Part shown: positions 45,250 through 59,873 of the stretch, one piece after another
How positions within the stretch are numbered: the first letter of the stretch is position 1
Layout: every line of letters begins with the position of its first letter
Source of the DNA: Dethiobacter alkaliphilus
Lineage (GTDB): Bacteria; Bacillota; Dethiobacteria; DTU022; UBA8154
Length of the DNA stretch: 64,000 nt
Direction of reading: 5' to 3'
Assembly: GCA_016841605.1 (NCBI GenBank)
Contig: JAENYV010000003.1
Coordinates: 73,064-137,063 of the forward strand
Notes under the pieces: model-generated
Told to the model about the DNA's origin: nothing
Database searches by the model: none
Seen by the model: the letters and a program-made list of their open reading frames with translations, nothing else
Program-made: the position numbers and the translations under genes

Positions 45250-45523
45250 ATCAATATGCTTTCCCGCAAAAGCTTTTTTTATTAGAGCTATGTACAATGT
45301 TTTTTTGCAAGTGAAAATTCCCCGCTTTTGCAAAGTATTTCCCAGGCACCAGTGGGGAATTCTTTATGTAAACCTACCTCTCATATCTTCAGAAAGAAGA
45401 ACTGAAAATGGCATTTGGCATTACCTATTAAAGTAATTATATGTTATGATTTAAGAAGCTTGAGCAGGTATTCCTGGGGGCTTTGGTCATCCAATGTCTC
45501 AGACATGGTTACCATTGTATATT

Positions 45524-45592
45524 TCGACCGCATCCGGACACCAATTTCGGAAACGTCCGGACAATATTTCGGAATTATACGGACATCATAAC
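45524..45592. mobile_element. Remnant of an IS21-type insertion-sequence end
   Basis: Contains repeated CGTCCGGACAATATTTCGGA and CATCCGGACACCAATTTCGG blocks, the kind of multiple terminal repeats found at IS21-family ends; read on the minus strand it is followed by a short open frame (MVTMSETLDDQ..., ends 45444). No transposase is present. It lies in the 420-base gap between the glycosyltransferase and the MoaE-like gene and marks the left border of the AT-rich island. The rest of the gap shows nothing I recognise. Confidence 0.5.
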
Positions 45593-45669
45593 ATAACAGC
45601 ACATTATCCACCGGCAGTACCGAGTAACATGCAAATAGTAACAATTTTTAAAAAGGAGCGTATCAGACT

Positions 45670-46080
45670 ATGATTAATAAAAAAATTAAAAAAATTTCAC
45701 CATCTATGGATGAATGGCTCAAAGAAGCAAAAGCGGATCCTGTTGCTTTAAAGGTAGGAATGTTTTTAGTTCATAATGGTGTTGTACGCCAAACGCCTAA
45801 AGCAAAGGTTCGCCAAGGGTTTGATGATGGTTCGTTGGTAAAAGGAATGGAATTTTTCTATGATGCAGTGAAAGTTGATGAGGCGATTGCGGAAACTTAT
45901 AAGATGGATGGAATATTCTATGTTAAGGTGTGGCTTAATGAAGGTCAGCTTGAAATTGGGGATGACATAATGTATGTACTTATAGGTGGCGATATTAGAC
46001 CCCATGTTGTAGATGCTCTTCAGTTCCTGGTTGAAAAAATCAAAACCAAATGTGTTACTGAAATAGAACAAAAAGCATAA
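45670..46080 (+). CDS. MoaE-like protein (molybdopterin synthase large-subunit family), orphan
   Basis: 136 residues: VGMFLVHNGVVRQTPKAKVR, VKGMEFFYDAVKVDEAIAET, IFYVKVWLNEGQLEIGDDIM and GGDIRPHVVDALQFLVEKIK, which follow the MoaE order of blocks although the catalytic region differs from the E. coli type. A typical MoaE sulfurylates precursor Z together with MoaD. Here there is no moaD or moaA beside it and the gene lies in the accessory island, not with the Mo-cofactor operon at 11-14 kb. AAGGAG lies 11 bases before the ATG. Confidence 0.7.
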   Translation: MINKKIKKISPSMDEWLKEAKADPVALKVGMFLVHNGVVRQTPKAKVRQGFDDGSLVKGMEFFYDAVKVDEAIAETYKMDGIFYVKVWLNEGQLEIGDDIMYVLIGGDIRPHVVDALQFLVEKIKTKCVTEIEQKA

Positions 46081-46097
46081 AATCGAAAGAAAAGCAG

Positions 46098-46244
46098 ATG
46101 AATACTTTGACGGTTGCCTTATTTGGCCGCGGCAATACAGTCGTCCCAACTGTAGGTGAGCATATTTATGCAGAAGATGGTGAAGTTGAGCTTACAGTAA
46201 GGCAACAAAAAAATGAAGCAGGAATAATCAAAGGCCATATATAA
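46098..46244 (+). CDS. Small open frame, chimeric (tail related to the integrase remnant)
   Basis: 48 codons starting MNTLTVALFGRG, ending KNEAGIIKGHI. The last ~45 bases (AAGGCAACAAAAAAATGAAG...) align with the 3' end of the tyrosine-recombinase fragment at 57950-57990. The first half matches nothing I know. Probably a decayed junction rather than a working gene, though it follows moaE-like by only 17 bases. Confidence 0.35.
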   Translation: MNTLTVALFGRGNTVVPTVGEHIYAEDGEVELTVRQQKNEAGIIKGHI

Positions 46245-46254
46245 GGTATTAAAT

Positions 46255-46278
46255 AACCGGGAGTAACGGCTCCCGGTT
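46255..46278. terminator. Hairpin AACCGGGAG/CTCCCGGTT, left copy
   Basis: Nine-pair perfect stem with loop TAACGG followed by ATTTATTG; the plus strand could terminate the moaE-like transcript. An identical stem and loop is at 58062-58085; both belong to a longer direct repeat. Confidence 0.65.
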
Positions 46279-46315
46279 ATTTATTGAAGAATAAAGACAA
46301 CAAAAGGTATTTTAT

Positions 46316-46480
46316 TTATTAGAATTTTCCCATTCATCTCTGCTAACTTTATCTTGGTCTATTTTCCAGCAATTCAAACTATATATCTTTTTTTATGTTT
46401 GTTAGTTATTGTGAGATTAAGTGTTCCTTTTATCATGTATGGGTAATTACCACCTGTAAAATCGAATTAACACCTACAAT
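46316..46480 (-). pseudogene. Dead copy of hicA
   Basis: Aligns with the intact hicA at 58117-58335 on the same strand. Translated pieces are NYPYMIKGTLNLTITNKHKK, then a TGA stop, and VSRDEWENS in another frame. The His of GSKHPYM is replaced (NYPYM) and the 5' part is gone. The following ~300 bases (46481-46775) hold nothing I recognise. Confidence 0.8.
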
Positions 46481-46775
46481 AAATTTTTATACTAAACGGT
46501 AGCGCCTCTTCAACAATAGCTTCGTTGCATCCCAGTCGTCGTAAAAATAACAATTGAAAATTTGTATCAGTACAGGTGCAGTTTTGGCATGTTAATAGAT
46601 TTATTTAGATAGGCAGGGAATATAATACACCATAGCGAAATTTATCCATTATCTCATTCTACAATTATCAGAAGATTATAAGTTAAACTAACTTAATTCA
46701 GGGGAACAGCCAATAATCTTTTAGCAGATATCCTGTATCCCCAAATTTGTTTCTTGGGAAGGAATAAGGAATAAT

Positions 46776-48295
46776 ATGACTTTGCCATTACGACATATAT
46801 CGGTACGGGTGCCTTGGCATGACAGTGGTTGGAACGGTAAGATTTGCATGGATTCCAGGAACAATTCTGCGTGCATGTTTTTGCCAAGAATTCAGATGCA
46901 AAAAACATTCCCCTAATTGACAGGATTGACAGAGTGTTGATTGGCGCTACCACGGTTAAAAGAGTCGGCGAATTAGTTGAATACAAATACAAAACAAAGC
47001 ATCCCCCCCTCAGAAGTTCTTTCTGGGAAAGGCCCGTTTACCATGGATTAAATCCGAAGTATGATGAGGGGTTCATCCTCCCATACCAAGAGCTTATTGC
47101 GTTCCTGACTGACGAAAGCCAGGAAGAAATTGAGCAATATATCGCCTATGCTCCTAATTTCGAGGAGTTTTCATATGGATCCGAGCTCTTATCTCATGAC
47201 ACAGCCATAGATGCATTAATATCATTGAGAAACGCGCTCCACACCATTACTGAGAAACTGGGTACAAAACAAGCCTACCAGGGGCAATTTGCCTGGATAA
47301 ACGAAAAACTAAGTAACCTCTGGAATATGCGTGGGGCCTTTCCGGGCCTTGGCCCCGTATTGAGTGCCATGCAAGTGCCGGAAGGGAATATCGTTGCCTG
47401 GGAAATTGAAAAATATTTACGTCAGCAAGACGGCAAAATCCCAAAAACGGATCCATGGGACAAGGTATTAGAAGTATTACATGGGAAGGCAGACTGGTTA
47501 AGGCAGGACCTACGTGCATCTATAAGTAAATCGCTGGCAGGGGTTTGGGAAACAATGCCAAAGGAAAGAAAGGAATACCTGAAGCTCCTAAGCCGGTTAA
47601 ACATTAATAACGAGCAGGCGGAGTATTTCTATGAGAACCATAGTGAACATGATTACCTGAACAATATGTACTTGTTTTATGAGAATTCAATTTTAACCAA
47701 CCATCCCATCAGTATTGATGTTGTTGATAAAGCGGTTTACTTAAAAGAAAACCTCTTGAAAACTTTCCCCCTTCCTGAAAGTGCACAGGCTGATGGTTTA
47801 CACGATCATCGCAGGATCAGGGCTTTTGTGCTAAACACCCTTGAGTTGTCAGCCTGCCAGGGGCATTCCCTGCAAACCCAGGAACAGGTTATTTCTTCAA
47901 TTAATGAGCGGGATAAAGAAAACCCCCTTTCTGTCACGCGGGATATTCTCAATTACACAGAAAAATTCTTCGCAGATAAAATTAAGATTGAGCAGGTGCA
48001 AAGTGAAGGGGATTCAGGTTATAAGTATTATAAACTATCCCGTTATGCTGATTATAAAAAAATAATTTACAATACGGTATTTAATAGAGTACATAAAGCA
48101 AGACGGATTAATGTAACAATCAACTGGCAGGACCTACTGGATTTAGAAATCAAAGCAAAGGAAAGCCCCTCTGACCGGGAACGTCAGAAAGAAGACCGTG
48201 CCCGCAAGGAAAAACTGGCAACACTCGCAGAGATCAGCCAATCCCGCTTTTCCATTATTATTGGTCCGGCAGGCACGGGTAAAACAACGCTCTAA
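46776..48295 (+). pseudogene. RecD-like helicase, N-terminal part (frameshifted and cut after Walker A)
   Basis: An ATG at 46776 after AAGGAA opens LPLRHISVRVPWHDSGWNG, NNSACMFLPRI, then the frame meets a TAA at 46914. The rest of the protein continues in another frame from about 46890 (KNSDAKNIPLIDRIDRVLIG ... WERPVYHG) for ~470 codons up to IIIGPAGTGKTTL and a TAA at 48295. This is the large N-terminal region plus the Walker A loop of a big helicase; the motor domain is missing beyond it. Its C-terminal part lies inverted just to the right, fused to Res. Such helicases occur in defence loci. Confidence 0.8.
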
Positions 48296-48349
48296 TAGCA
48301 GTTTCTCCTCCAGGTCATTGACACTGAACCATTCCACGAATTTCAGGTT

Positions 48350-51300
48350 TTACCAGTTTTTACTCTTGTGCTGAACAATTTCCTCGAAGATATCCTCTTC
48401 TTTCCTAACCAATGAACTGCTGAACCACTGACTGAGGCGCACATCAATCCTGTCTTGTGGCATCCCTCCATCCCCGGGGGAACCTTTTTGTTGCCTGAAT
48501 ATCTCTTTCAGTTCATGTTCCTGTGTGGCCTGTTTGTAAGGAACAATCCCGTTGTGTGCATACCATTCCTTTTTCATCTCCCATTTTTTCCGATAGCCAT
48601 CATGGGCAAGCATTCCCAGGTGTTCCCAGTAAAACACAACACCAAGTTCCCTGTTTTCAATCGTAAAATCAGGGTGTATGGTAATACCCCGGGCGTCGCA
48701 GATTGGCTGTTCATAGGTGTAGGGTACTTGCTGGTAAAACAACTGATCGGCAATGATTACTTCAGATTTTGAGATCATAAATTCGCCCAGGGCGGATATT
48801 TGGACATAATTTCTGTCATAGTAGCGTTTCTTTATCTCTTTTAGTGCCGGTGTGCTGAATATATCAGTAAGCCGGCGGCCCGTTTCGCTGAATCCATCGT
48901 TTGTATATTTTTTGAAATCTTTAATATCACCTTGATGGAAAATTATGATACGGTCCTCCTGGCGGGTTAGGGCCGTATATAGCAGCTCGCGGCTCAAGAG
49001 CCTGCATGGATTGGGGAGAATGAGAAAAACGGTCTTAAAGCCGCTGCCCTGTGATTTGTGCACGGTAATGGCATAGGCAAGTTCAAATTCAATATCACCG
49101 TCTTCCCTGAAATCGGCTTCCTTTAAAGCATAGGCGTAGCCCGGTTGTGAGGAAAACTCGATCTGAACATTTGGGGGATCGTTGAACAACTTCTTCGCAC
49201 AAGTTATCTTAGCTTCCTCAATATCGTCGGTACGAGTCATTTCACCGAATTTTGTTGATTGCATACTGCCTTTTGTTTCTACAATAAAGAAGATATGCTT
49301 CACCGCGCCCTTCTTAAATGAAATGGCCCAGTCCGGGGAGTAATTGCCAACGGGTGTCGGGATATAAAACCCACGCGGCCCCCTCGGCAGTTTGGCATAG
49401 ACTATCACCTCGTCGGCAGCGTCCAAGTCTTCGGCGAATTGCCTCTCGATGCTGTTGGCCGAAGTACCGTCCGTAAAGATATAATCTTGAATGGCGTTTT
49501 TTGCCTTGAAGGCCTTGGCGTATTCATCGGAAGCCCGGCTCATATTAAAGATGTCCTGAGAATACGGTTCTTCCGCACTCGGAGCATAGGTGATATGCTC
49601 CACGACTACAGAAGCTTTTTGACGATTAATAATGCCTGCGGTCCTGCTGATGAATTCCTCCGGATTTTCGCAGAACAACCATAGCTTCTCAGGCAAGATG
49701 CCTTTGAGTATTGCCGTGATCGTTCGGCGCGTAAGGGTTGCTCTTTCCGCTATTTTGCCAATAAGGTCATACTCGGCATGGCCGCCTTGGGCACTGTCAA
49801 GTTTTTTTGTCTCTGTACGCTTCACGTTAAATTCTATGCCTTCTTGTTCGCCTCGAGTAATGCTATAGGAAAGCCGGGCAACTCTCAATTCTGCATTGAT
49901 GGCAGCGATGGACTTCTGAATAAGTTCGTCGCTGACAAACTCCACTGTGTAAGCATATTTTTTGTTAATTCGATCCCACAGTTCCTTAAAGTCCTTCCAG
50001 TTTTCATTCAGTGGATTGTCTTTAACCTTCGTTTCATGTCCGTTGCCTGCCATATCTTTCAGAATACTTGGGTCGAAAATAGCTTGTACCAGCTTGTGGA
50101 TGCTCTCGGAAAGCGGTTCAAGTTCCGGTTTTAACGGTTCAAAGTTACCCGTCTCTGCGGCAGCGCGGTAAGTGTCCGTAATACCGCCGTTGTCGTCAAC
50201 ATAATAGTTGCGGACAAGATAGTGGTATATTGCGGTGGCCTCTGCTTTCGAAATTGTATGTATGTTGTCACCGATATTAATGCTTTTACCGCTAAAATAC
50301 TCAATGCTCGCTTTCGTCGGGCGTTCATAAATATCGGCTATGATTTCACTCTGCAATTCCGCAACAAATTTGGTATAGCTTTCGCTTGCAACAACGGTCA
50401 GCATATTCACGCTGTGAACGAGGTCGTCTCCGCAAACTTCTAAATCCTGCCGTTCACCGGTGCTATTCACGCAAAGGCGCATGCCTCGCCCCACTTCCTG
50501 CCGTTTTGTTGTAGCGCTGTCGGAATGCTTCAAGGTGCATATCTGAAACACATTGGGGTTATCCCAGCCTTCCCGCAGAGCGGAGTGAGAGAAAATAAAC
50601 CGGGTCGGCTCATCAAAGGAGAGCAGCCGCTCTTTGTTCTTTAGGATGAGATCATAAGCAGAGATGTCGTCCGAAAACTCACTGCCGCGCTTGACTGTGC
50701 TGTTAACAGGGTGCCCTTTTTTATCTATGGAGAAATAGCCCCGGTGGGTGTCGGCGGCATCGATGCCTCGCAGATAGGCCTGATAAGCCGAAGGTACTAG
50801 CGTTAGCCGCTCGTTTAGTGCAGCGGTGTATTCTGCCTCGAAGATACGGCCATACTCACCGAGGACTTCCTCTCCTTCGTCACCATATTGGCGGTAATTC
50901 GCTACCTCATCGATGAAAAAGAGGGATAGGCACTTGATGCCCTGCTCAAACAGCTTTTCCTCCTTATCAAAATGTGAGGCTATTGTTTCGCGGATTTGGA
51001 TGCGGCGTATATCCCTCTCGTTGACATTACCGCTTGCTTCTCCTGTTGACAAGATATCACCATTTGAAAATTTAACCAGCGCACGTATCGGGTCGATTTC
51101 AGCGATGGAAATACCTTTATATTCTTCCAGCCCATTTGATGCGGTATAAAGGCTATCACCCGCGCCGAGTATATGAATCTCGCGTTTAATACCACTGCTG
51201 CGTATTACCTCAAATTCCAACCTAGCCCGGGGAGGCTTCTTGTGGTCGATTACAATAGCGGCAAGATACATATATCGATTTGTCCCGCTCAGGTTTTTTA

Positions 51301-51616
51301 ACTCGAAGCCCTTGACCTCGATTTTTTTAACAAGCTTCTTTTTATAAGCGTCAAGAGCGTCAAGGACATAAACAAGGTTGTGTGAGGTCTTATGCGTTGC
51401 CGAATAGTTCAGCGAGAACAACGGGTTGAAATTCTTCTTCAAAGCATTCTGTGTCGCTGCGCCGCCCATTTTTTGGGGCTCGTCCAGAATAATAATCGGG
51501 CGGTTTGCCTTGATGACATCGATGGGCCGGCGGGAGCCGAACTCATCCCGTTTGCTGTAGATAATTCTCGCTGCCTCGTTGCCCCTTCTTCCCTCGACAT
51601 TCTTAGCCTCATTCAT
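48350..51616 (-). pseudogene. Chimeric open frame: type III restriction subunit (Res) body fused to the C-terminal part of the RecD-like helicase
   Basis: 1088 codons without a stop. Residues 1 to ~815 are Res: RPIIILDEPQKMGG (DExx box), NYSATHKTSHNLVYVLDALD, HSALREGWDNPNVFQICTL, RQEVGRGMRLC, and the PD-ExK nuclease NYSPDWAISFKKG...FIVETKGS. From ~820 the sequence becomes helicase-C-like: ELAYAITVHKSQGSGFKTVF, LLSRELLYTALTRQEDRIII, then a nuclease-like tail (IHPDFTIENRELGVVFYWEH). The junction is near 49160. The Res part lacks its ATPase start, which lies in another frame upstream (51624-52150), so the original enzyme is dead; a fused protein could still be made from an internal start. Confidence 0.85.
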
Positions 51617-51623
51617 TGTCGTG

Positions 51624-52150
51624 TTAAATGCCTGGGTGTTGATTGATCATGACATTGATGCCGGAAGACTGGGAGAACTCGTCCAACTGGTGCAGGTTGA
51701 AGGAATTATAGACAAAAAACCGGGCCTTCATTCCATATGGTTCCATAAAATGTTCCTGTGTGATTTCAAAGGATTTCTTAATCCCTTCGCGGATGGCAAT
51801 GCTGGGCACGACGACGATGAACTTGCTCCAGCCATAAGCCTTGTAGAGCCCAAACATGGTCTTGATATAGACATAAGTTTTACCGGTGCCGGTTTCCATT
51901 TCCACATCAAGCGAAACGACACCAAGCCCGGGAACAAGCTCATTGGAAAGCTTAATATTATTTGCCATTTGAATATCACGGATATTTTTCAGAAGCTGTT
52001 CCTTGGCTAGTTCTACGTCCGCGTTTCTATAAGCGGCTTCAAGTATTTCAATTTCTTCGACAGTTAATTCATTGCGTGTGTTATAGTATTTATTCCAGAG
52101 TTTTTTGCGTTTTTGCTCTTCGGTCTCATCGAATAAGCTTGATTGCGGCT
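51624..52150 (-). pseudogene. Res, Walker A segment (separate frame, between IS3 and the frameshift)
   Basis: Reads [59 protein letters not shown] (Walker A), [20 protein letters not shown], and ends SGINVMI. The next residues of the family (NTQAFNTT) are found in the following frame: a TGAT unit is duplicated at 51640-51647, causing a frameshift. The right end stops at the IS3 boundary. Confidence 0.85.
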
Positions 52151-52224
52151 TGACCCCCTGTCATTGGAGAATATACGTTTAAACTCTCAATCTTACTTAA
52201 AAATACTCTAATTTTGAGCAGCCG

Positions 52225-52345
52225 CCCTTGACATGGGGCCCCTGGTGTCCATGTTTCATAGGGCCAGTCAGGGCCAGCTGCAGCTAACGCTTTGTGGCCC
52301 ATTGCCGAAGGCAGGCTAACATGGACACCTTCCCCATGTCAAGGG
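52225..52345. repeat. Long imperfect hairpin in the non-coding tail of the IS3 element
   Basis: CCCTTGACATGGGG (52225-52238) and GGTGTCCATGTT (52244-52255) are complementary to CCCCATGTCAAGGG (52332-52345) and AACATGGACACC (52318-52329). It lies between the orfB stop and the IS end. Confidence 0.8.
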
Positions 52346-52363
52346 TCTTCGATAAACGGCTGC

Positions 52364-53179
52364 TTAAGCAACGAACTTTTTGCCTGTTATCTGCTTATTA
52401 ATAACAGCCTTGAAGTACTTAGCTGGGGCCATGTATCCGATACTGCCGTGCCGGCGGCGATTATTATAATAATCCATATATTCACTAATAACCCTGTATG
52501 CGTCAGTAAAACTGGAAAACTCATTTCTACTGTAACATTCGTCTTCCAGGATCGAATGGAAGGATTCAATATAGGCATTCATATTAGGTGTTTTTACCGG
52601 GATTCTTTCATGCGTTAGCTTCCATTTCCAACATGTTTCTTGAAATATCTTAGCTGTAAACTGGGAGCCATTATCTGTCCTTATGATCGGTAACTCCATA
52701 CCGGGTTTCAATCCCCGCTTCTTAAGTGAATTAATAAGCACTGCACAAGCATCTTTAGCTTTTGCACTTAGCCCAAGGTGATAGTCAATCACTGAGCGGT
52801 CATATACGTCGATAAGGGATAGCTGGAAAAAGAACCTGTCAATACCTGCTATATACCCATACTTCAAATCCATCTGCCAGTGCTGGTTTGGAGCAGTAAC
52901 TTTCTCTCGTTTGGCTAGTTTTCTCGGACGAAACGGATATATCTTACGTTGAGGTCGCAAGACGTTAAGTTCTTTGCAGAGCCTGTAAGTTTTCTTGTTA
53001 TTTATAATAAGCTGATAGTCTTCTTGCAAGGTTATGTTGATTTTCTTATAGCCATAGGGAAAACCATCCCCGGCAATTATATCTTTAATAAAATCTTTTA
53101 TTGTGTCATCGGGGACTTTTTTCCCTTTTGAATTTACTGAGTAACCTGGAATCTTGCGTCCCGGTTGCTTTTTAGACAA
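52364..53179 (-). CDS. IS3-family transposase OrfB (DDE integrase)
   Basis: 271 codons from the first start-like codon; the frame is open upstream to at least 53325 (PSVADRVAIAKRWIEKGYHS...), overlapping orfA, so the true product is likely made by frameshifting from orfA. Catalytic residues: Asp in HWQMDLKYGYIAG, Asp in PIIRTDNGSQFTAKIF and Glu in NMNAYIESFHSILEDE. It ends YFKAVINKQITGKKFVA. It looks intact. Confidence 0.93.
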   Translation of the reverse strand: MSKKQPGRKIPGYSVNSKGKKVPDDTIKDFIKDIIAGDGFPYGYKKINITLQEDYQLIINNKKTYRLCKELNVLRPQRKIYPFRPRKLAKREKVTAPNQHWQMDLKYGYIAGIDRFFFQLSLIDVYDRSVIDYHLGLSAKAKDACAVLINSLKKRGLKPGMELPIIRTDNGSQFTAKIFQETCWKWKLTHERIPVKTPNMNAYIESFHSILEDECYSRNEFSSFTDAYRVISEYMDYYNNRRRHGSIGYMAPAKYFKAVINKQITGKKFVA

Positions 53180-53307
53180 ACCTTGATTAAAGGCAGTTTC
53201 GTTAATTTTATGGTAGTAGGTGGATGAAGCAAGACCGACAGAGTTAAGGACTATAGAAGAATGATAGCCCTTTTCTATCCACCTTTTAGCTATAGCAACC
53301 CTGTCGG

Positions 53308-53622
53308 CTACCGAGGGTTTGGAATATCTCTTAATTCTCTTAAAATAGCCAGCTCCAGCTCTTTATCAGCAAGAAGGCGTTTTAACCTGTCATTTTCAGT
53401 GCTAATTTCTCTAAGTTGCCTTTGCATAGCTTTCTGGCGATCATCCTTAGCTCTGGGCAATGGTTTAACTGTACCATGTTTCCGATACTTATTTAACCAA
53501 GTATGAATAGTGTTAGAAGAAATCTCATGTCGGCGAGCTACTAAAGCCACATTACCTGTTTCTTGACACTCCTTAATAATCAATTCTTTGAATTCATCAC
53601 TATACTGTTTGTTGTTTTTCAT
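53308..53622 (-). CDS. IS3-family OrfA (helix-turn-helix protein)
   Basis: 104 residues: YSDEFKELIIKECQETGNVA, RRHEISSNTIHTWLNKYRKH (helix-turn-helix) and a C-terminal leucine-zipper-like stretch REISTENDRLKRLLADKELE. It recognises the IS ends and is the upstream partner for the OrfAB fusion. The overlap with the orfB frame near 53310-53345 fits programmed -1 frameshifting; I did not pin down the slippery site. Confidence 0.93.
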   Translation of the reverse strand: MKNNKQYSDEFKELIIKECQETGNVALVARRHEISSNTIHTWLNKYRKHGTVKPLPRAKDDRQKAMQRQLREISTENDRLKRLLADKELELAILRELRDIPNPR

Positions 53623-53696
53623 TAAAACCTACCCCCTATTAAAATGTTAACATATTAAACGTGTTTTCTCCAAATTCTTTAGGGGGCTAAATAGAT

Positions 53697-53845
53697 TGCT
53701 CATATTTTTGCTCGCTTGGTCCCTTGCGTTTGCCGAGGTCGAGTCGGTACTTGCTCATACCTTGATTTGGCTGTCCTGCAAATACCTTGACTACGCTTTC
53801 GGCGGCTTCTGTTTGGAAAGGCTGTATTTTAAACTGAAATTTCAT
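53697..53845 (-). pseudogene. Res, first ~49 codons (cut off by the IS3 element)
   Basis: The ATG at 53845 comes directly after the mod stop. It reads MKFQFKIQPFQTEAAESVVK, VFAGQPNQGMSKYRLDLGKR and then runs into the IS end with a TAG. This is the start of the type III restriction subunit whose remainder lies at 52150-48350. Confidence 0.85.
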
Positions 53846-54376
53846 TTACAGCACCCTCCTTATTGTGCTCGGACTATAGGTGGAGAACACCTGCTCAAAG
53901 TTTACCATTGCACTGTCGCTCAAGAAACTACTGTCGCGGAACACAGCGTAGTACGGTTTTTTCTTTGCAATTTCTATAATAAGGGCGGTATCAACCCTGC
54001 CAAAGCAGGCAATAAGGTAATTGTCGTTGACATAGAACGTTTTGTCCTCCTGGTTGATTTTCGCCGAAGGCGGTATACCAAGGTCAAGCATAACCTGGAA
54101 AAGCAAGTCCTCATCTGAACGAGCGGGTTTGATATTATCCATGAAGCCCTCGATATCAAAGTTCAACTGAGCGTACCCTTCAGGTGTATAGTACACATTT
54201 TTCATATTGCTGCTGTCGAGTTTGAGAACACGGAAACCGATGTCTAAATTTTCAATACTCTCTTTGTCTTTGTTTTCTTCTTTGGTTTTCTTTCCTGCAC
54301 GGCGGATACGTTCTTTGCCAATTTCGCAGATTGTCTTGTATCCGGCTTTTGAGCTGCTGCACTGTCTTCTTGGCAT
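53846..54376 (-). pseudogene. Type III DNA methylase (Mod), C-terminal part after a frameshift
   Basis: Reads ICEIGKERIRRAGKKTKEEN, IGFRVLKLDSSNMKNVYYTP, DEDLLFQVMLDLGIPPSAKI, YLIACFGRVDTALIIEIAKK and FEQVFSTYSPSTIRRVL, the usual C-terminus of type III Mod proteins. The true sequence enters from the neighbouring frame at about 54360. The stop is adjacent to the res start, as in intact mod-res operons. Confidence 0.85.
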
Positions 54377-54745
54377 ACTTCTGGCAATTGTACCAAAATA
54401 AATTTGCGCTTCCCGTCGTCTTCTGTGTTAAGTTGCATTACTGCGTGTGCGGTCGTGCCACTACCGGAGAAAAAATCAAGGACAATATCATAACTGGTTG
54501 TTGATAACTGCATGCAGCGTTTTATCGTACCAATAGGTTTAGGGTTATTGAATATTGTCTTTTCAAATGCTAAATCAATAAATTGTTCTGTTCCGCGTTC
54601 ACTATTTACATCTTTATATGTCCATGAACTTATCGGCTTTAGCAACTCTCTACCCTCTAGGTAATCTTTTACCATAATACCCCATATTTTTCGAGTTGGC
54701 ATATACTTAGGTATTAGTTTGTTGATATTAGAAATAGTGAAAATA
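54244..54745 (-). pseudogene. Type III DNA methylase (Mod), SAM-binding segment, N-terminus lost
   Basis: Homology starts near 54745 (IPKYMPTRKIWGIMVKDYLE) and includes the SAM-binding motif DIVLDFFSGSGTTAHAVMQL and KFILVQLPEVCQ. It then leaves frame at ~54360. The target-recognition region and the catalytic DPPY segment are absent, replaced by the truncated helicase gene. The methylase cannot be functional. Confidence 0.85.
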
Positions 54746-56513
54746 GCAGAACTTTTTTGTTGCCCTGATTGAACGGGTGCTGAATTTTCTCAGATATAAG
54801 CTGAAGAAGTGTCTGCAGCTTTGTGTCGTGTTCTGGTGTGATGTCTTTTATCATCAAGATTAGTAATTTCAGGGTTTCAGAGTCCTCGATAAGCTTTTTA
54901 CGCCAGGATATGTAGTCCATATCACCAAGGTCAATATCAATCTTCTTAGTGCCACCTGTAAAGAAGTTAGTATTTTGGTCATCGTCATCAAAGTCATTTT
55001 CGGAGAGTTCTCTAGCGCTTATTACCTTCCTGCTGCCCCTCTCATAGTTGTCTATCTCAGCAATCTTATCATCAATAAGGCTTTTTACCCTCTGGATTGT
55101 GATATTAAAGGATGCCACTGAGCTCTCAAGTCGCTTCAAAAGATTAATGCACATCAGTCGGCGAATACCGATTTCACGCCCAGCACGGTCAATATTCACA
55201 TTTGGGTCGATATATTTTGCCCGTTTGCTATCGAGCAAGAAATCCGTAGGGATATAGACGGCTAAATTCAGCCCCATTAGCTGCTCGTAAATTATGTCAT
55301 AGTCAATAGCGGAGGGCAGGTTGGTTAGTTTTGGACGAAGGGCTATTGGCTTCATCCTTTCCGGAAATTTTCCTATCTCCTCAATATTGTAGTAATTTTC
55401 GATATGCTTACGGGAACGGGCAATGGTTACACTGTCAAGCATGGTGAAAAAGTCAAAATCAAGGTCGCGGAGAAGGTTTTCGGTGGTGCGCTCTTTGGCT
55501 TCAAGCCTACACCATTTATTAAAGGCGGTTTGGGCGTTACGAAAGATAACATCAATAGGTTTTGTCGTATCCAGTTTATCATTTATGAGTGCGGGGTTAC
55601 CCTCATAGGCAAGTTCAAGCTGATGCCGTAAATCAGAAAAGCCATTGTTTACAGGTGTCGCTGAAAGCATCAGCACCTTTGTTTTGACACCTTTGCGGAT
55701 AACCTTATTGAGCAGTTGAAGATAGCGGTTCTCACGCTTGTCAGCACCCCGCCCGTAATAGTCCCCACCATTACGAAAATTATGACTTTCATCGATAACG
55801 ATTAGGTCATAGTTACTCCAGTTAAATTTAGAAAGGTCTATAATGCCGGAAAAGCCGCTTTCCCTAGACAAATCCGTGTGGTAAAGCACATCGTAGCGCA
55901 GAAAGTCTGTGAAAATAGGATTATTCAGGTAATTTTCTTTAAATGTGTACCAGTTATCACCAAGTTTTTTTGGGCAGAGGACGAGTACAGTGCGATTACG
56001 CAGTTCGTAGTATTTGATTACCGCAAGGGCGGTAAAGGTCTTGCCGAGACCGACGCTATCGGCAAGAATACAACCATTATACCTTTCCAGTTTGTTGATA
56101 ATCGCGAGGGTCGCATCTTTTTGGAAGGCGTACAGCTTGTTCCAGATTTTTGTTTCCTTGAAGCCCGTTGCCTCATTTGGCAGAACATCCTCGTTGATAT
56201 CCGCAAGAAACTCGCTGAAGATATTGTAAATAGCAACAAAGTAAACGAACTCCGGCGAGTTCTCATTGTAAGCGGCAGTGATGCCGTCGATGACTTGCTC
56301 GGTCACGTCCTGCAGCAGCTTTTTGTCGTTCCAAATCATATTGAAACTATCGAGGAACTGGCGACTTTCTAAATGGGCAAATTTAATCGTTTGCACAACA
56401 ATATTGTTGCCACGTTCACAGCCTAGGTCTGAGGTGGTAAAGCCGTTGATCGGTGTATACGAGAATCCGCCGTCAGCCTGCTTTACGTCGAGGAAGGTGT
56501 TGATCAAATCCAC
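54714..56513 (-). pseudogene. SNF2/DEAD-type helicase, motor domain, C-terminus truncated
   Basis: 599 codons: INGFTTSDLGCERGNN, YAFQKDATLAIINKLERYNG, ILADSVGLGKTFTALAVIKY (Walker A), YDLIVIDESHNFRNGGDYYG (DEAH-like), TKVLMLSATPVNNGFSDLRH (motif III). It ends KKVLLFSLFLISTN near 54714, where an intact protein would enter the second RecA-like lobe; instead the sequence passes into mod. The N-terminal phospholipase-D-like region is in another frame upstream. Confidence 0.85.
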
Positions 56514-56830
56514 GCTGCAAATTCACGGGCAATTACTTTCTGGGTTAATTTGTTTCGCAGCTTGACTTCGAACTCCGTGCCGTAAAGTGAGCGCTCGCGG
56601 TTAAGCCGAGGAATATAAAATTCCCGTTTCTCTTTCGGAGCTTTTTCCTGCAAGAATGTCGGTGAGGTGAAAATAAAGCGCAGCTCATCAATACCATCAA
56701 GTTGTTTTTTGAGAGCTTGGTAAGCATATATTGAAAAACAAGCGGCGGCTATCGAAAGCTTATCACCTTTCGATATTGTTGCCGCCAAGTCATCTTTAAC
56801 GGTTTTATTAATATTGTCGAGAATTTGCAT
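56504..56830 (-). pseudogene. PLD-like N-terminal region of the SNF2-type helicase (frameshifted)
   Basis: 108 codons from an ATG at 56830 after GAGG: MQILDNINKTVKDDLAATIS, KLSIAAACFSIYAYQALKKQ, LRFIFTSPTFLQEKAPKEKR, LYGTEFEVKLRNKLTQKVIA, then a stop at 56504. The helicase continues in the next frame (VDLINTFLDVKQADGG). Together they are one gene of the PLD-plus-SNF2 kind often found beside type III mod-res operons. Confidence 0.8.
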
Positions 56831-57007
56831 ATGTTTTTCCTCATTTACAACAAATATTACAGGTTACTTCGAATGAAAAAAGGTTTGCTTAGTTTAATAA
56901 AATCATAGAGGGAGATCGAGATTTCGCTTTTTAAAAAAAATGTTTGTTCAGCAGACTGCTCCTTGCCTGGTCAGCGGTGTAATGTTTAGAATTATTGTAT
57001 AACGTTT

Positions 57008-57124
57008 TTAAAATATGAATTCAAGTTCGTTTTTGTTGTAGAGCTGGGAAAGATATTTTAAAAATTCTTCTTTGATATCTTCTGCTAGTCCAGAGTCATC
57101 AAACCACTGTTTTAAATCTTTATT
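57008..57124 (-). pseudogene. Short coding remnant, C-terminus of an unknown protein
   Basis: 38 codons without a start: DLKQWFDDSGLAEDIKEEFL, KYLSQLYNKNELEFIF, stop. The amino-acid pattern is protein-like (amphipathic, charged) but I cannot assign it. It lies upstream of the dead helicase in the 1-kb gap 56831-57850. Confidence 0.3.
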
Positions 57125-57491
57125 TTAGTCAATGTGAGGGTAACAATAAAGATTCAATATGGTCTATATAGCCAAGGTAATAATATGTAATTCTGCAAAA
57201 ATAGGTCTATCCCTTTAACGAATGAAGTCATGTTTTGTCGAATAGCAAGAAAGGTATAGACAAAGCGATTTAATTTTGGACAGTTAAGAAAATAGTTTGA
57301 GAGAAGCGCTCATTGGCTAAGGGTAAAAGTTGTCTGTTAATTTAATTTGAAAGATAGCTTAGAAGAGCCATAATGGCATTTGTCCACTTTTCTTACCTTG
57401 TAGGCGATGGCTATCATTTTACAGAAAAATGTATGCTCTTAAACAAGAAAAGACCTGAAATCCTAAACGGGAGGGCTAAAAATTTATCTGC

Positions 57492-57674
57492 CTAATTATG
57501 CTCTCCGGCATGGTAGTCCGGAACCAGGGCCAGCAGTCCTTCCTGGATGTATTGGCTACATAATATTGCTTCCTCTTTACCAAAATCAAGAATTATGCGC
57601 AATGCCTTCATTCCGTATTCTTTAAAAAATGTGCATTGGACCCGGAGGAGGTGTTTACCGTTGAAGAGACCATA
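57492..57674 (-). pseudogene. Remnant resembling the C-terminus of a WYL-type transcription regulator
   Basis: 60 codons ending at TAG 57492: GLFNGKHLLRVQCTFFKEYG, MKALRIILDFGKEEAILCSQ, YIQEGLLALVPDYHAGEHN. The ALxxILxFGxxAxIL pattern resembles the C-terminal extension of WYL-domain regulators, which often control defence islands. No start and no N-terminal half are present. The family assignment is tentative. Confidence 0.4.
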
Positions 57675-57820
57675 TCAATGGAAAAGTGACATCGCAGAAA
57701 TGCTGAAGGCTTTCTTACTTTTACCGGAGAAACGTGATTATGGTGAGTGTTTCAATTAAAAAAGAGCCTAATTCGGGTATCAACTTGAATCACTCACCAT
57801 AATTTAAGGCTCTACATAAT

Positions 57821-57850
57821 GCCTCTTATGGGGAGCTCCCCATAAGAGGC
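57821..57850. repeat. Perfect 30-base palindrome
   Basis: GCCTCTTATGGGGAG at 57821-57835 followed without spacer by its exact complement (57836-57850). It sits 2 bases before the integrase fragment. A second inverted pair, TATGGTGAGTG (near 57739) and CACTCACCATA (near 57791), lies just upstream. Confidence 0.9.
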
Positions 57851-57852
57851 AC

Positions 57853-57990
57853 ACATTTGCCACATTGAGCCTTCAGGAGGGCATTGACATCCGGACCACC
57901 CAGGAGAACCTTGGCTATCATGATTCAAGCTTTACGGTGAACGTTTACAGCAAGGCAACGAAGAAAAGGAAACAGGAGGGCCACAAGTAA
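57853..57990 (+). pseudogene. Tyrosine recombinase, C-terminal fragment
   Basis: 45 codons: TFATLSLQEGIDIRTTQENL, GYHDSSFTVNVYSKATKKRK, QEGHK, stop. It matches the end of phage-type integrases (HTFATL box, LGH box here changed to LGY, and the nucleophile Tyr in NVYS). Everything upstream, including the first Arg box, is missing. It is the only trace of an integrase for the island. Confidence 0.8.
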
Positions 57991-58061
57991 GATCGGGAAC
58001 CTGTTTGGCCTCCTGTATTCAGGAATAACCCCTATCCTAAACAGGATATTCTGGATCTAAT

Positions 58062-58085
58062 AACCGGGAGTAACGGCTCCCGGTT
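58062..58085. terminator. Hairpin AACCGGGAG/CTCCCGGTT, right copy
   Basis: Same stem and loop as at 46255-46278, followed on the plus strand by TATTGTT. It lies between the integrase fragment and hicA, which end towards each other, so it may terminate either. Confidence 0.65.
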
Positions 58086-58116
58086 TATTGTTAAAGAATA
58101 AAAGTAACAAAATGTA

Positions 58117-58335
58117 TTATTTTTTAGAATTTTCCCATTCATCTCTGCTAATTTTAGCTTGGTTTAATATTTTTTCCAGCAACTCAGGCCATATCTCTTT
58201 TTCTTTATGTTTGTTAGGTATTGTGAGCTTAAGTGTTCCTTTCACCATATATGGATGCTTACTACCTGAAAATGGCCCATTAAAACCAAATTCTTTTAGC
58301 CTCTTTATTAGGTCTCTTCGGCTTATGGGCTGCAA
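58117..58335 (-). CDS. hicA: HicA-type toxin (mRNA interferase)
   Basis: 72 residues: ISRRDLIKRLKEFGFNGPFS, GSKHPYMVKGTLKLTIPNKH (catalytic His), LLEKILNQAKISRDEW. HicA toxins cleave mRNA through a double-stranded-RNA-binding-like fold. It starts at TTG 58335 after GAGGAAAG and overlaps hicB by 13 bases, typical coupling of a toxin-antitoxin pair. A dead copy lies at 46316-46480. Confidence 0.9.
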   Translation of the reverse strand: MQPISRRDLIKRLKEFGFNGPFSGSKHPYMVKGTLKLTIPNKHKEKEIWPELLEKILNQAKISRDEWENSKK

Positions 58336-58967
58336 CTTTCCTCAACCACCTTGCCTAATTCTATTCCGTCAAGAACAGGTAACGGGTCATGATCAAGAAG
58401 TTTTAAAACTATCCACTCTTCAATAACTTCTCGTAATATAGAAATACATAGCTCTTTAGTATCTTCGTTTGCCCATACCCCAGGGCATTCTGGTATCTCA
58501 GCATAATAAGAGCCGTCGCTTAATCTCTCAATCTTAGAACTTGACATTGCCGCTTTAATGTATGAAGACAATATAGGCCTTGTTTCCAATGTAAATCCAG
58601 CCTCTCTATTTTCCGTTTTAAAATGGTCCTCGGCCGTATGATAATTACTCATTTCCATTTTTAAATTCAAGTTTAATTGATGCAAATTTTCTTCTTCTAT
58701 GATACAATATGTCTTTTCCTTATTATAGTTTAACCAATTATTTCTTTTTTTTTGCATCAGCTGAGGAGTTAGAAAGTTTTGAAGTTTTGAATATAAGTCT
58801 TCCATTTTATTTCTCTTACCCATAATAATTACCTTAATTATATCAGGGTCATTATTTCGACGTCGATACATCATTTCAATATTTGGCATGTCAGAGAAAT
58901 CGTTCTCGTCATAAGGCAATGTATAACTAATTCTTTTATTCTTCTGAAAAAGCCGAGGCTGCATCAT
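58323..58967 (-). CDS. HicB-type antitoxin with a ~130-residue N-terminal extension
   Basis: 214 codons. Residues ~133-214 are HicB: ILSSYIKAAMSSSKIERLSD, GSYYAEIPECPGVWANEDTK, LREVIEEWIVLKL. That is the full usual HicB length, and HicB would neutralise the adjacent HicA. The first ~130 residues (DIIKVIIMGKRNKMEDLYSK, KKRNNWLNYNKEKTYCIIEE) match nothing I know and are charged and Asn-rich. They may be a real fusion or an upstream gene that lost its stop. The start overlaps the preceding gene by 32 bases. Confidence 0.72.
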   Translation of the reverse strand: MMQPRLFQKNKRISYTLPYDENDFSDMPNIEMMYRRRNNDPDIIKVIIMGKRNKMEDLYSKLQNFLTPQLMQKKRNNWLNYNKEKTYCIIEEENLHQLNLNLKMEMSNYHTAEDHFKTENREAGFTLETRPILSSYIKAAMSSSKIERLSDGSYYAEIPECPGVWANEDTKELCISILREVIEEWIVLKLLDHDPLPVLDGIELGKVVEESCSP

Positions 58968-59262
58968 TTATAAAGTTCACCACTTTCTCTTTGTTATCAA
59001 AAGCAGTTTTATTAATCAATTTAGCAAACCTAAAAAAGTGTGGCCAAGTCAAACAAATTCGAGCAACAACCTCGCCTGCATCAGCATCCTCACCTTCAGG
59101 ATTAAAAGGGAGTTTTTGAACAAACGTTATCGAGATGCTTTCTAAATTAGCGTTTACCTGAACATAATCCGAAAACTTTGAAGAGATCAGAGATTGATCA
59201 GGAAAAAAAATTTGCACTCCTTGTTTGTTTTCCTTTTCCTCAGATATCTTATTTTCATCCAT
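58936..59262 (-). CDS. DUF3467-like small protein
   Basis: 108 residues: DQSLISSKFSDYVQVNANLE, SISITFVQKLPFNPEGEDAD, AGEVVARICLTWPHFFRFAK. The pattern of an extended beta region ending ARIxLTWPHFxxFAKLI resembles DUF3467 proteins, whose role is unknown. GGGAGGGAG precedes the ATG at 59262. It heads a probable three-gene unit with the hicB-like and hicA genes. Confidence 0.65.
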   Translation of the reverse strand: MDENKISEEKENKQGVQIFFPDQSLISSKFSDYVQVNANLESISITFVQKLPFNPEGEDADAGEVVARICLTWPHFFRFAKLINKTAFDNKEKVVNFINDAASAFSEE

Positions 59263-59417
59263 ATTTCTCCCTCCCAGAAATTAATATTAAAGCAAAAAGG
59301 GTTTTTGATGCTTAAGAGCCCAAAAACCTTTAAATAGATGATACGCCAACTAATGTCAAAACCGTATTTTTTGTTATATATTAACTCCTCACTAATTTAA
59401 TAAAGGCTTAAAAACAA

Positions 59418-59493
59418 TGGTGCACCTGGCAGGGATCGAACCTGCGACACCCGGATTAGGAATCCGGTGCTCTGTCCCCTGAGCTACAGGTGC
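59418..59493 (-). tRNA. tRNA-Arg (anticodon CCU)
   Basis: 76 bases with encoded CCA. Acceptor GCACCTG pairs with CAGGTGC; the anticodon arm is CCGGA-TTCCTAA-TCCGG, giving CCT (reads AGG); the T loop is TTCGATC. Discriminator A. The 3' end faces the accessory island. Confidence 0.95.
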
Positions 59494-59541
59494 ATGCATT
59501 ATCATAAAATAGAGTATAATCATTTTTAATTAACGAATAAA

Positions 59542-59616
59542 TGGTACGCCCGCAGGGATTCGAACCCCGACTTCAGGCTCCGGAGGCCTGCGTGATATCC
59601 CTTTCACCACGGGCGC
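59542..59616 (-). tRNA. tRNA-Arg (anticodon CCG)
   Basis: 75 bases with encoded CCA. Acceptor GCGCCCG against CGGGCGT, anticodon arm CAGGC-CTCCGGA-GCCTG giving CCG (reads CGG), T loop TTCGAAT, discriminator A. It lies 48 bases upstream of the CCU tRNA on the same strand, so probably one transcript. The 257 bases to the MATE gene hold nothing I recognise. Confidence 0.95.
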
Positions 59617-59873
59617 GTGCTTCTTTTCAAAAATTATGATAACATTTCCCACTGGAAAAGTCAATGGACTAATATGGACTATAATCCTCTCGTCCTTTTC
59701 GAAGACTTTTGGACAAGTCTTTTCTGGCAGCTGAAAGAAGGATCTTCCCGACGTTTGTTATTCAAATCTACTCCAACTCTAACTATTTTGTTGGTCTGAA
59801 CTCCAGCCGCTATACCGCTTAAACCTACCCATTATGCAACTGATAGTAAATGTGTGTAATTATACTTCTCAAC

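Follow-up and report, generated by a model that had tools for sequence, protein, structure and literature searches.

The question raised by this locus is why a cluster of defence genes in Dethiobacter alkaliphilus lies between two diverged copies of one sequence, and how the two copies arose. In the window, that is the whole 64-kb stretch (64,000 nucleotides) that was analysed, they stand about 11.8 kb apart. The initial annotation had described a direct repeat in the same orientation holding an integrase end, an identical hairpin and hicA, a left hicA that is dead and has lost its catalytic His, and enclosed defence genes that are broken. All of these points were borne out, and the features of the two copies are as follows.

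46192 to 46223, plus strand: left copy, last integrase codons (YSKATKK, then a stop), from alignment and shuffles
46255 to 46278, unstranded: left copy, putative integrase terminator hairpin
46313 to 46474, minus strand: left copy, hicA pseudogene, 3' two thirds only, with frame breaks and His27 changed to Tyr
57853 to 58028, plus strand: right copy, 3' remnant of a tyrosine integrase gene, with indels relative to that on contig C15 of relative G021 (G021:C15)
58062 to 58085, unstranded: right copy, putative integrase terminator hairpin
58117 to 58335, minus strand: right copy, hicA, open, His27 kept

Pairwise alignment in the same orientation gave 191 identical columns of 232, gaps counted, for the main block (46252-46474 against 58059-58287; 83% over 216 columns with E 6e-59 by BLASTN). 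Upstream of it lies a separate integrase-tail block (46192-46223 against 57945-57977) with 28 of 33 columns identical, a score reached by none of 1000 mononucleotide and none of 500 dinucleotide shuffles. Since this block exceeds all shuffles, the similarity extends beyond hicA and the hairpin, to which it might have been confined. The copies have in common the last codons of a tyrosine integrase, the 24-nt hairpin, which is identical in both, and the 3' part of hicA. Similarity does not continue into the outer flank (46476-46843 against 58288-59500; score reached by 408 of 500 shuffles) or into the other one (45334-46190 against 56850-57850; 311 of 500). In its own 4.07-Mb genome the repeat occurs at these two places only, and the same count led us to reject the hairpin as a dispersed repeat. 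A 48-codon frame (46098-46244) without a Pfam match, lying 3' of a MoaE-like gene, crosses the junction into the left integrase tail.

The right hicA starts at TTG, stays open over 72 codons and matches Pfam HicA (E 2.5e-7); it has His27, as do two relatives (from G009 and G021). Of the left hicA the 5' third is missing, the frame is broken, and Tyr stands where the right copy and these two relatives carry His27. The right gene overlaps a second gene, whose last ~84 residues form a HicB-like domain (UPF0150) 44% identical to two relatives, and this is preceded by a third.

58323 to 58967, minus strand: gene with a HicB-like antitoxin domain (about residues 131-214) and an unmatched N-terminal extension
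58936 to 59262, minus strand: DUF3467 gene, preceding the HicB-like gene

A HicA with the conserved His adjoining a HicB, by which HicAB modules are recognised, is found in the right copy only; the left copy lacks it. The likeness to HicAB toxin-antitoxin systems, known here from sequence, consists in the HicA match with His27 and in the HicB-like domain of the next gene upstream. The arrangement departs from such modules in the ~130-residue N-terminal extension of the HicB-like protein, in the DUF3467 gene ahead of it and in the dead second hicA. The extension found a match at none of 33 hicA loci elsewhere, and two hicA loci on viral contigs matched none of the queries used.

All of the defence genes enclosed by the copies are damaged.

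46844 to 48295, plus strand: PDC-S68 RecD-like protein, N-terminal part (profile 177-636 of 1221)
48350 to 51616, minus strand: open frame of chimeric make-up, in which type III Res (profile 190-962 of 989) runs in frame into the C-terminal part of PDC-S68 (974-1194)
51624 to 51968, minus strand: upstream piece of that type III Res (profile 82-177 of 989)
52364 to 53622, minus strand: transposase orfA/orfB, between pieces of the Res gene and near the Res N-terminus
53846 to 54702, minus strand: type III Mod reduced to its C-terminal ~260 residues (profile from 360 of 621) and split over two frames
54714 to 56830, minus strand: HKD+Snf2-type helicase lacking its C-terminal third, abutting the Mod fragment

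The PDC-S68 gene is split over 46844-51616, its N-terminal part on the plus strand, which presumably ends at the Walker A motif, and its C-terminal part on the minus strand, fused to type III Res in an open frame of 1088 codons in which both profile matches meet at residue 812. No PDC-S68 relative that could account for the split gene was found in 96 other genomes of the class. The transposase pair is one that we take to be of the IS3 type, and 53687-53845 we take to be the N-terminus of type III Res. A 108-residue frame (56504-56830) is probably the N-terminus of the HKD+Snf2 helicase.

The origin of the repeat was approached through the integrase remnant and the features that flank the island.

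45310 to 45669, unstranded: left inversion breakpoint zone; homology to relative G001 upstream, on the glycosyltransferase side, stops at 45309
45670 to 46080, plus strand: MoaE-like gene, left of the left copy
59354 to 59382, plus strand: candidate surviving tRNA-side element end, 25 of 29 positions identical to G021:C8
59418 to 59493, minus strand: tRNA-Arg(CCT), the probable integration target
59542 to 59668, minus strand: tRNA-Arg(CCG) and its upstream flank, with the right inversion breakpoint at about 59669

In G021:C15, from the same family, an intact integrase gene matches window positions 57856-58015 at 80% and ends 136 bp from a tRNA-Arg(CCT) that corresponds to the one at 59418-59493; next to the integrase gene are genes for a DNA methylase and for EcoRII-C. 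Three more relatives, 53-63% identical to the G021:C15 integrase over the matched parts, are encoded by genes that end ~144-170 bp from a tRNA-Ala (G001), a tRNA-Val and a tRNA-Pro (both G021). The distance from integrase end to tRNA is thus ~135-170 bp in four of the five relatives examined; the fifth and more distant (G092, 39%) departs from the pattern, the nearest tRNA found being ~1.2 kb away. The remnant at 57853-58028 is a member of this family, tRNA-adjacent in those four of five relatives. In the window it lies 1.4 kb from the tRNA, with the hicA cassette between. A hairpin of the CCGGGAG type followed by a run of T stands 3' of the integrase gene in all four closer relatives, for which reason the hairpin of the window repeat is most simply read as the integrase's own terminator.

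Between terminator and tRNA the same four relatives share a short region with TGTCAAA motifs. Window positions 59263-59417, beside the tRNA, match this region with a score that none of 500 shuffles reached. The best piece, 59354-59382, lies 35 bp from tRNA-Arg(CCT), a spacing close to that in G021:C8; when the whole window was scanned with a profile it scored weakly (E 3.3), and the hit rests on its position. The same test gave no element-end sequence after the left hicA (score reached by 434 of 500 shuffles), and a control (179 of 500) and the region that follows the G001 tRNA (253 of 500) also scored at chance level. If the hit at 59354-59382 is accepted, the hicA-hicB-DUF3467 cassette would lie inside the element, between the integrase terminator and the att arm.

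The element's target is, on these comparisons, likely to be the tRNA-Arg(CCT) gene. In G019:C39 a 49-bp copy of the 3' end of this tRNA (94%) lies 5.4 kb from it, and a tyrosine-integrase fragment (Pfam E 2.6e-7) stands beside it, which indicates that the site is a hotspot, also used by another element. A copy of the tRNA 3' end as a direct repeat on the element's far side was found neither in the 64-kb window nor beside the left copy, and we accordingly call the window's element a remnant only; the repeat may possibly have been lost by deletion. A 10-bp tRNA match at 46571-46580 was considered as an att remnant near the left copy and rejected, being at chance level.

The flanks of the island have been rearranged, and both the tRNA and a ~14-kb inversion had been overlooked in the initial annotation. 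The orientation of tRNA-Arg(CCG) relative to the gene block at 38-45 kb is opposite to that of the window in all ten loci showing both (L018, L071, L072, L073 and L075-L080, read by eye from tables). When the window is compared with G001, homology is lost at two points, 45309 towards the glycosyltransferase gene and 59668 towards the tRNAs, and both breakpoints fall within one short intergenic region of G001. A single inversion of ~14.3 kb, from the tRNAs to the MoaE-like gene, would account for both the orientation and the breakpoints; no inverted repeat of note was found at the latter. In G012 (L076, G012:C138) and G017 (L079, G017:C43) the two tRNA-Arg genes are mutually inverted, 11-13 kb apart, so that rearrangement or inversion at this locus is a recurrent event within the family. 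Two landmarks were tried and discarded. The MoaE-like gene does not serve as a fixed anchor on the chromosome, since in G001 and G002 its homologues lie in other contexts, without the repeat. The other was the GerA block found after tRNA-Arg(CCT) in these two relatives, tried as a marker of the far inversion end; in the window's own genome it is matched at only 67% and on another contig.

The two copies of the repeat seem to be either corresponding ends of two related elements or duplicates of one such end. The reading that we favour, with moderate confidence, is that two related integrative elements were stacked at one tRNA-Arg site by tandem accretion, the older giving rise to the left copy, and that the block was later inverted. 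Each copy would represent an integrase-proximal end, made up of the 3' end of the integrase gene, its terminator and then hicA. The tyrosine integrase would place such elements at the 3' end of tRNA-Arg(CCT), and two elements of one lineage, both with hicA behind the integrase terminator, would have inserted there in turn. The older, distal element would have decayed to the left copy. The newer, adjacent to the tRNA, would have delivered the helicase, type III restriction-modification and PDC-S68 genes, the assignment of this cargo to it being drawn from position only, and its integrase and cargo would then have decayed through deletions, fusions and an IS3-type insertion. As a last step the block from tRNA-Arg(CCG) to the MoaE-like gene would have inverted, leaving the tRNAs on the island's far side from the glycosyltransferase gene.

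Tandem accretion predicts the same end twice, in the same orientation, with the distal copy more worn. The element end is present twice in one orientation relative to the tRNA, the distal copy being the more worn, and the two integrase-terminator ends lie on the same strand at one tRNA. Since no internal att site between the elements was found after the left hicA, accretion is here deduced from the arrangement of the ends. We infer also that the second copy came from a second integration and not from a duplication, as well as the order of events.

A possible but rather doubtful origin is that one element sat at tRNA-Arg(CCT), and that its integrase-terminator-hicA end was duplicated by ordinary recombination, the extra copy then decaying neutrally. 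The duplication would have happened in the course of the rearrangements by which PDC-S68 was split and the block inverted; the several further rearrangements of the island speak for it. So does the integrase-hicA junction, which no search found outside this genome. With the left copy as query the repeat was found in none of 96 other genomes of the class (best seven candidates per genome scored), and with the right copy the junction was found in none of 397 other genomes of the phylum (best two candidates per genome scored), many of these genomes being fragmented, so that weak copies could be missed. The right copy matched integrase parts only among the 397, in G001 and G092, and among 22 other genomes of the family it matched integrase parts (G001, G021) and short hicA pieces (G002, G009), without the repeat. 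A general integrase-hicA linkage was rejected, the sequence around the 33 hicA loci of the named genome collection giving no integrase match. That hicA lies beside this integrase in no other genome searched (33 loci, 96 class genomes, 397 phylum genomes) tells against accretion; since the junction is seen in this genome alone, the linkage is not general to the element family and may be one local event, later duplicated.

The differences between the two hicA copies bear on the same point. They fall at 9 of 53, 4 of 54 and 8 of 55 first, second and third codon positions, with no third-position excess. Because they are spread in this way they do not look like divergence between two selected genes, and the pattern fits decay after a duplication at least as well. 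On the other side, an identity of 83% requires the duplication to be old, each copy has its own integrase-tail changes, and the spacing after the integrase differs, the stretch from integrase tail to hairpin being ~50 bases longer in the right copy. At three tail positions G021 has the base of the left copy and not that of the right, so that the left is not merely a worn copy of today's right one. Two successive integrations remain our preferred reading.

It had also been proposed that the copies are the ends of an old mobile unit, or the result of a duplication or insertion between two hicA loci. A mobile origin is upheld by the tRNA-targeting element end and by the existence of island-free alleles; the copies as two ends of one unit are not. 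Their common orientation, their position at both island edges and the integrase tail in each would suit terminal repeats or att sites of one 11.8-kb mobile unit, which we nevertheless think very unlikely: the repeat holds integrase and hicA coding ends and exceeds an att core by far in length and in divergence, and the integrase's site in relatives is the tRNA 3' end. The island-free alleles, moreover, carry no copy. In G001, G002, G005, G006 and G008 the two tRNA-Arg genes lie 1-234 bp apart, with neither repeat nor island. One copy is expected at this site if an insertion fell between two hicA loci, or if the ancestor simply had a single copy; the repeat-free alleles of the tRNA site carry zero. 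The suggested search of relatives for a single-copy allele without the island thus did yield island-free sites, but with neither copy. When ten tRNA loci were compared with window positions 46192-58340, the sole match was a 148-bp piece in G001 (89%). It corresponds to window 52238-52384, beside the IS3-type transposase genes, and to G001 L071 10831-10978, shortly after tRNA-Arg(CCT).

That two independent hicA loci stand 11.8 kb apart by chance, with a common terminator as the hairpin, gains a little from the wide spread of hicA (33 loci across many phyla in the named genome collection) and is hardly credible, given that the integrase tail before the hairpin matches too (0 of 500 shuffles), that hairpin and repeat occur nowhere else in the genome, and that the copies are 83% identical in DNA, as against 55-59% in amino acids for the next hicA relatives.

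Stacking of elements at one site is known from other islands. In two earlier reports (PMC5704250, PMC4891358), tandem accretion denotes successive site-specific integrations at one tRNA gene with decay of the older element, and the integrases of the two parts of a Klebsiella composite island are related (74%) and not identical. The present locus would share the successive integrations at one tRNA, the decayed older element and the related, non-identical integrases, accretion being a deduction here; it differs in that the window is without an internal att site, most of the older element is gone and the block is inverted. The locus adds one more case to a known type of genomic island, and it has the look of an ordinary composite island, now decayed, at a tRNA-Arg hotspot, with a history that is unusually readable. 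Given the tRNA target of the relatives and the inversion, the puzzling repeat round a defence island can be read as stacked element ends. The known mechanism is unchanged by these findings, which add an arginine-tRNA hotspot that repeatedly takes up elements in this genome family and a possible place for a toxin-antitoxin cassette, between integrase and att arm.

The only unusual feature is the placing of a HicA-HicB cassette within the element end. We suggest, tentatively and with considerable reserve, that hicA-hicB-DUF3467 forms part of the recombination module of the element lineage, where it separates the integrase terminator from the att arm on the tRNA side. If so, the cassette would remain linked to the tRNA-proximal end and make cell survival depend on retention of the element, and its position would explain why hicA has outlived the rest of the island.

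The element of G021:C15 is like that of the window in its tRNA, in having the closest integrase (80% at the DNA level, in the tail), in the kind of terminator and in its restriction-modification cargo. It differs in that the integrase is intact and 136 bp from the tRNA with no hicA between, the cargo is another one, there is no second copy, and the tRNAs have the common orientation. Immediately 5' of the integrase remnant, the window has a perfect 32-bp palindrome (57820-57851, TGCCTCTTATGGGGAG/CTCCCCATAAGAGGCA) that occurs at one place in the genome, with a second inverted repeat near it at 57737-57803.
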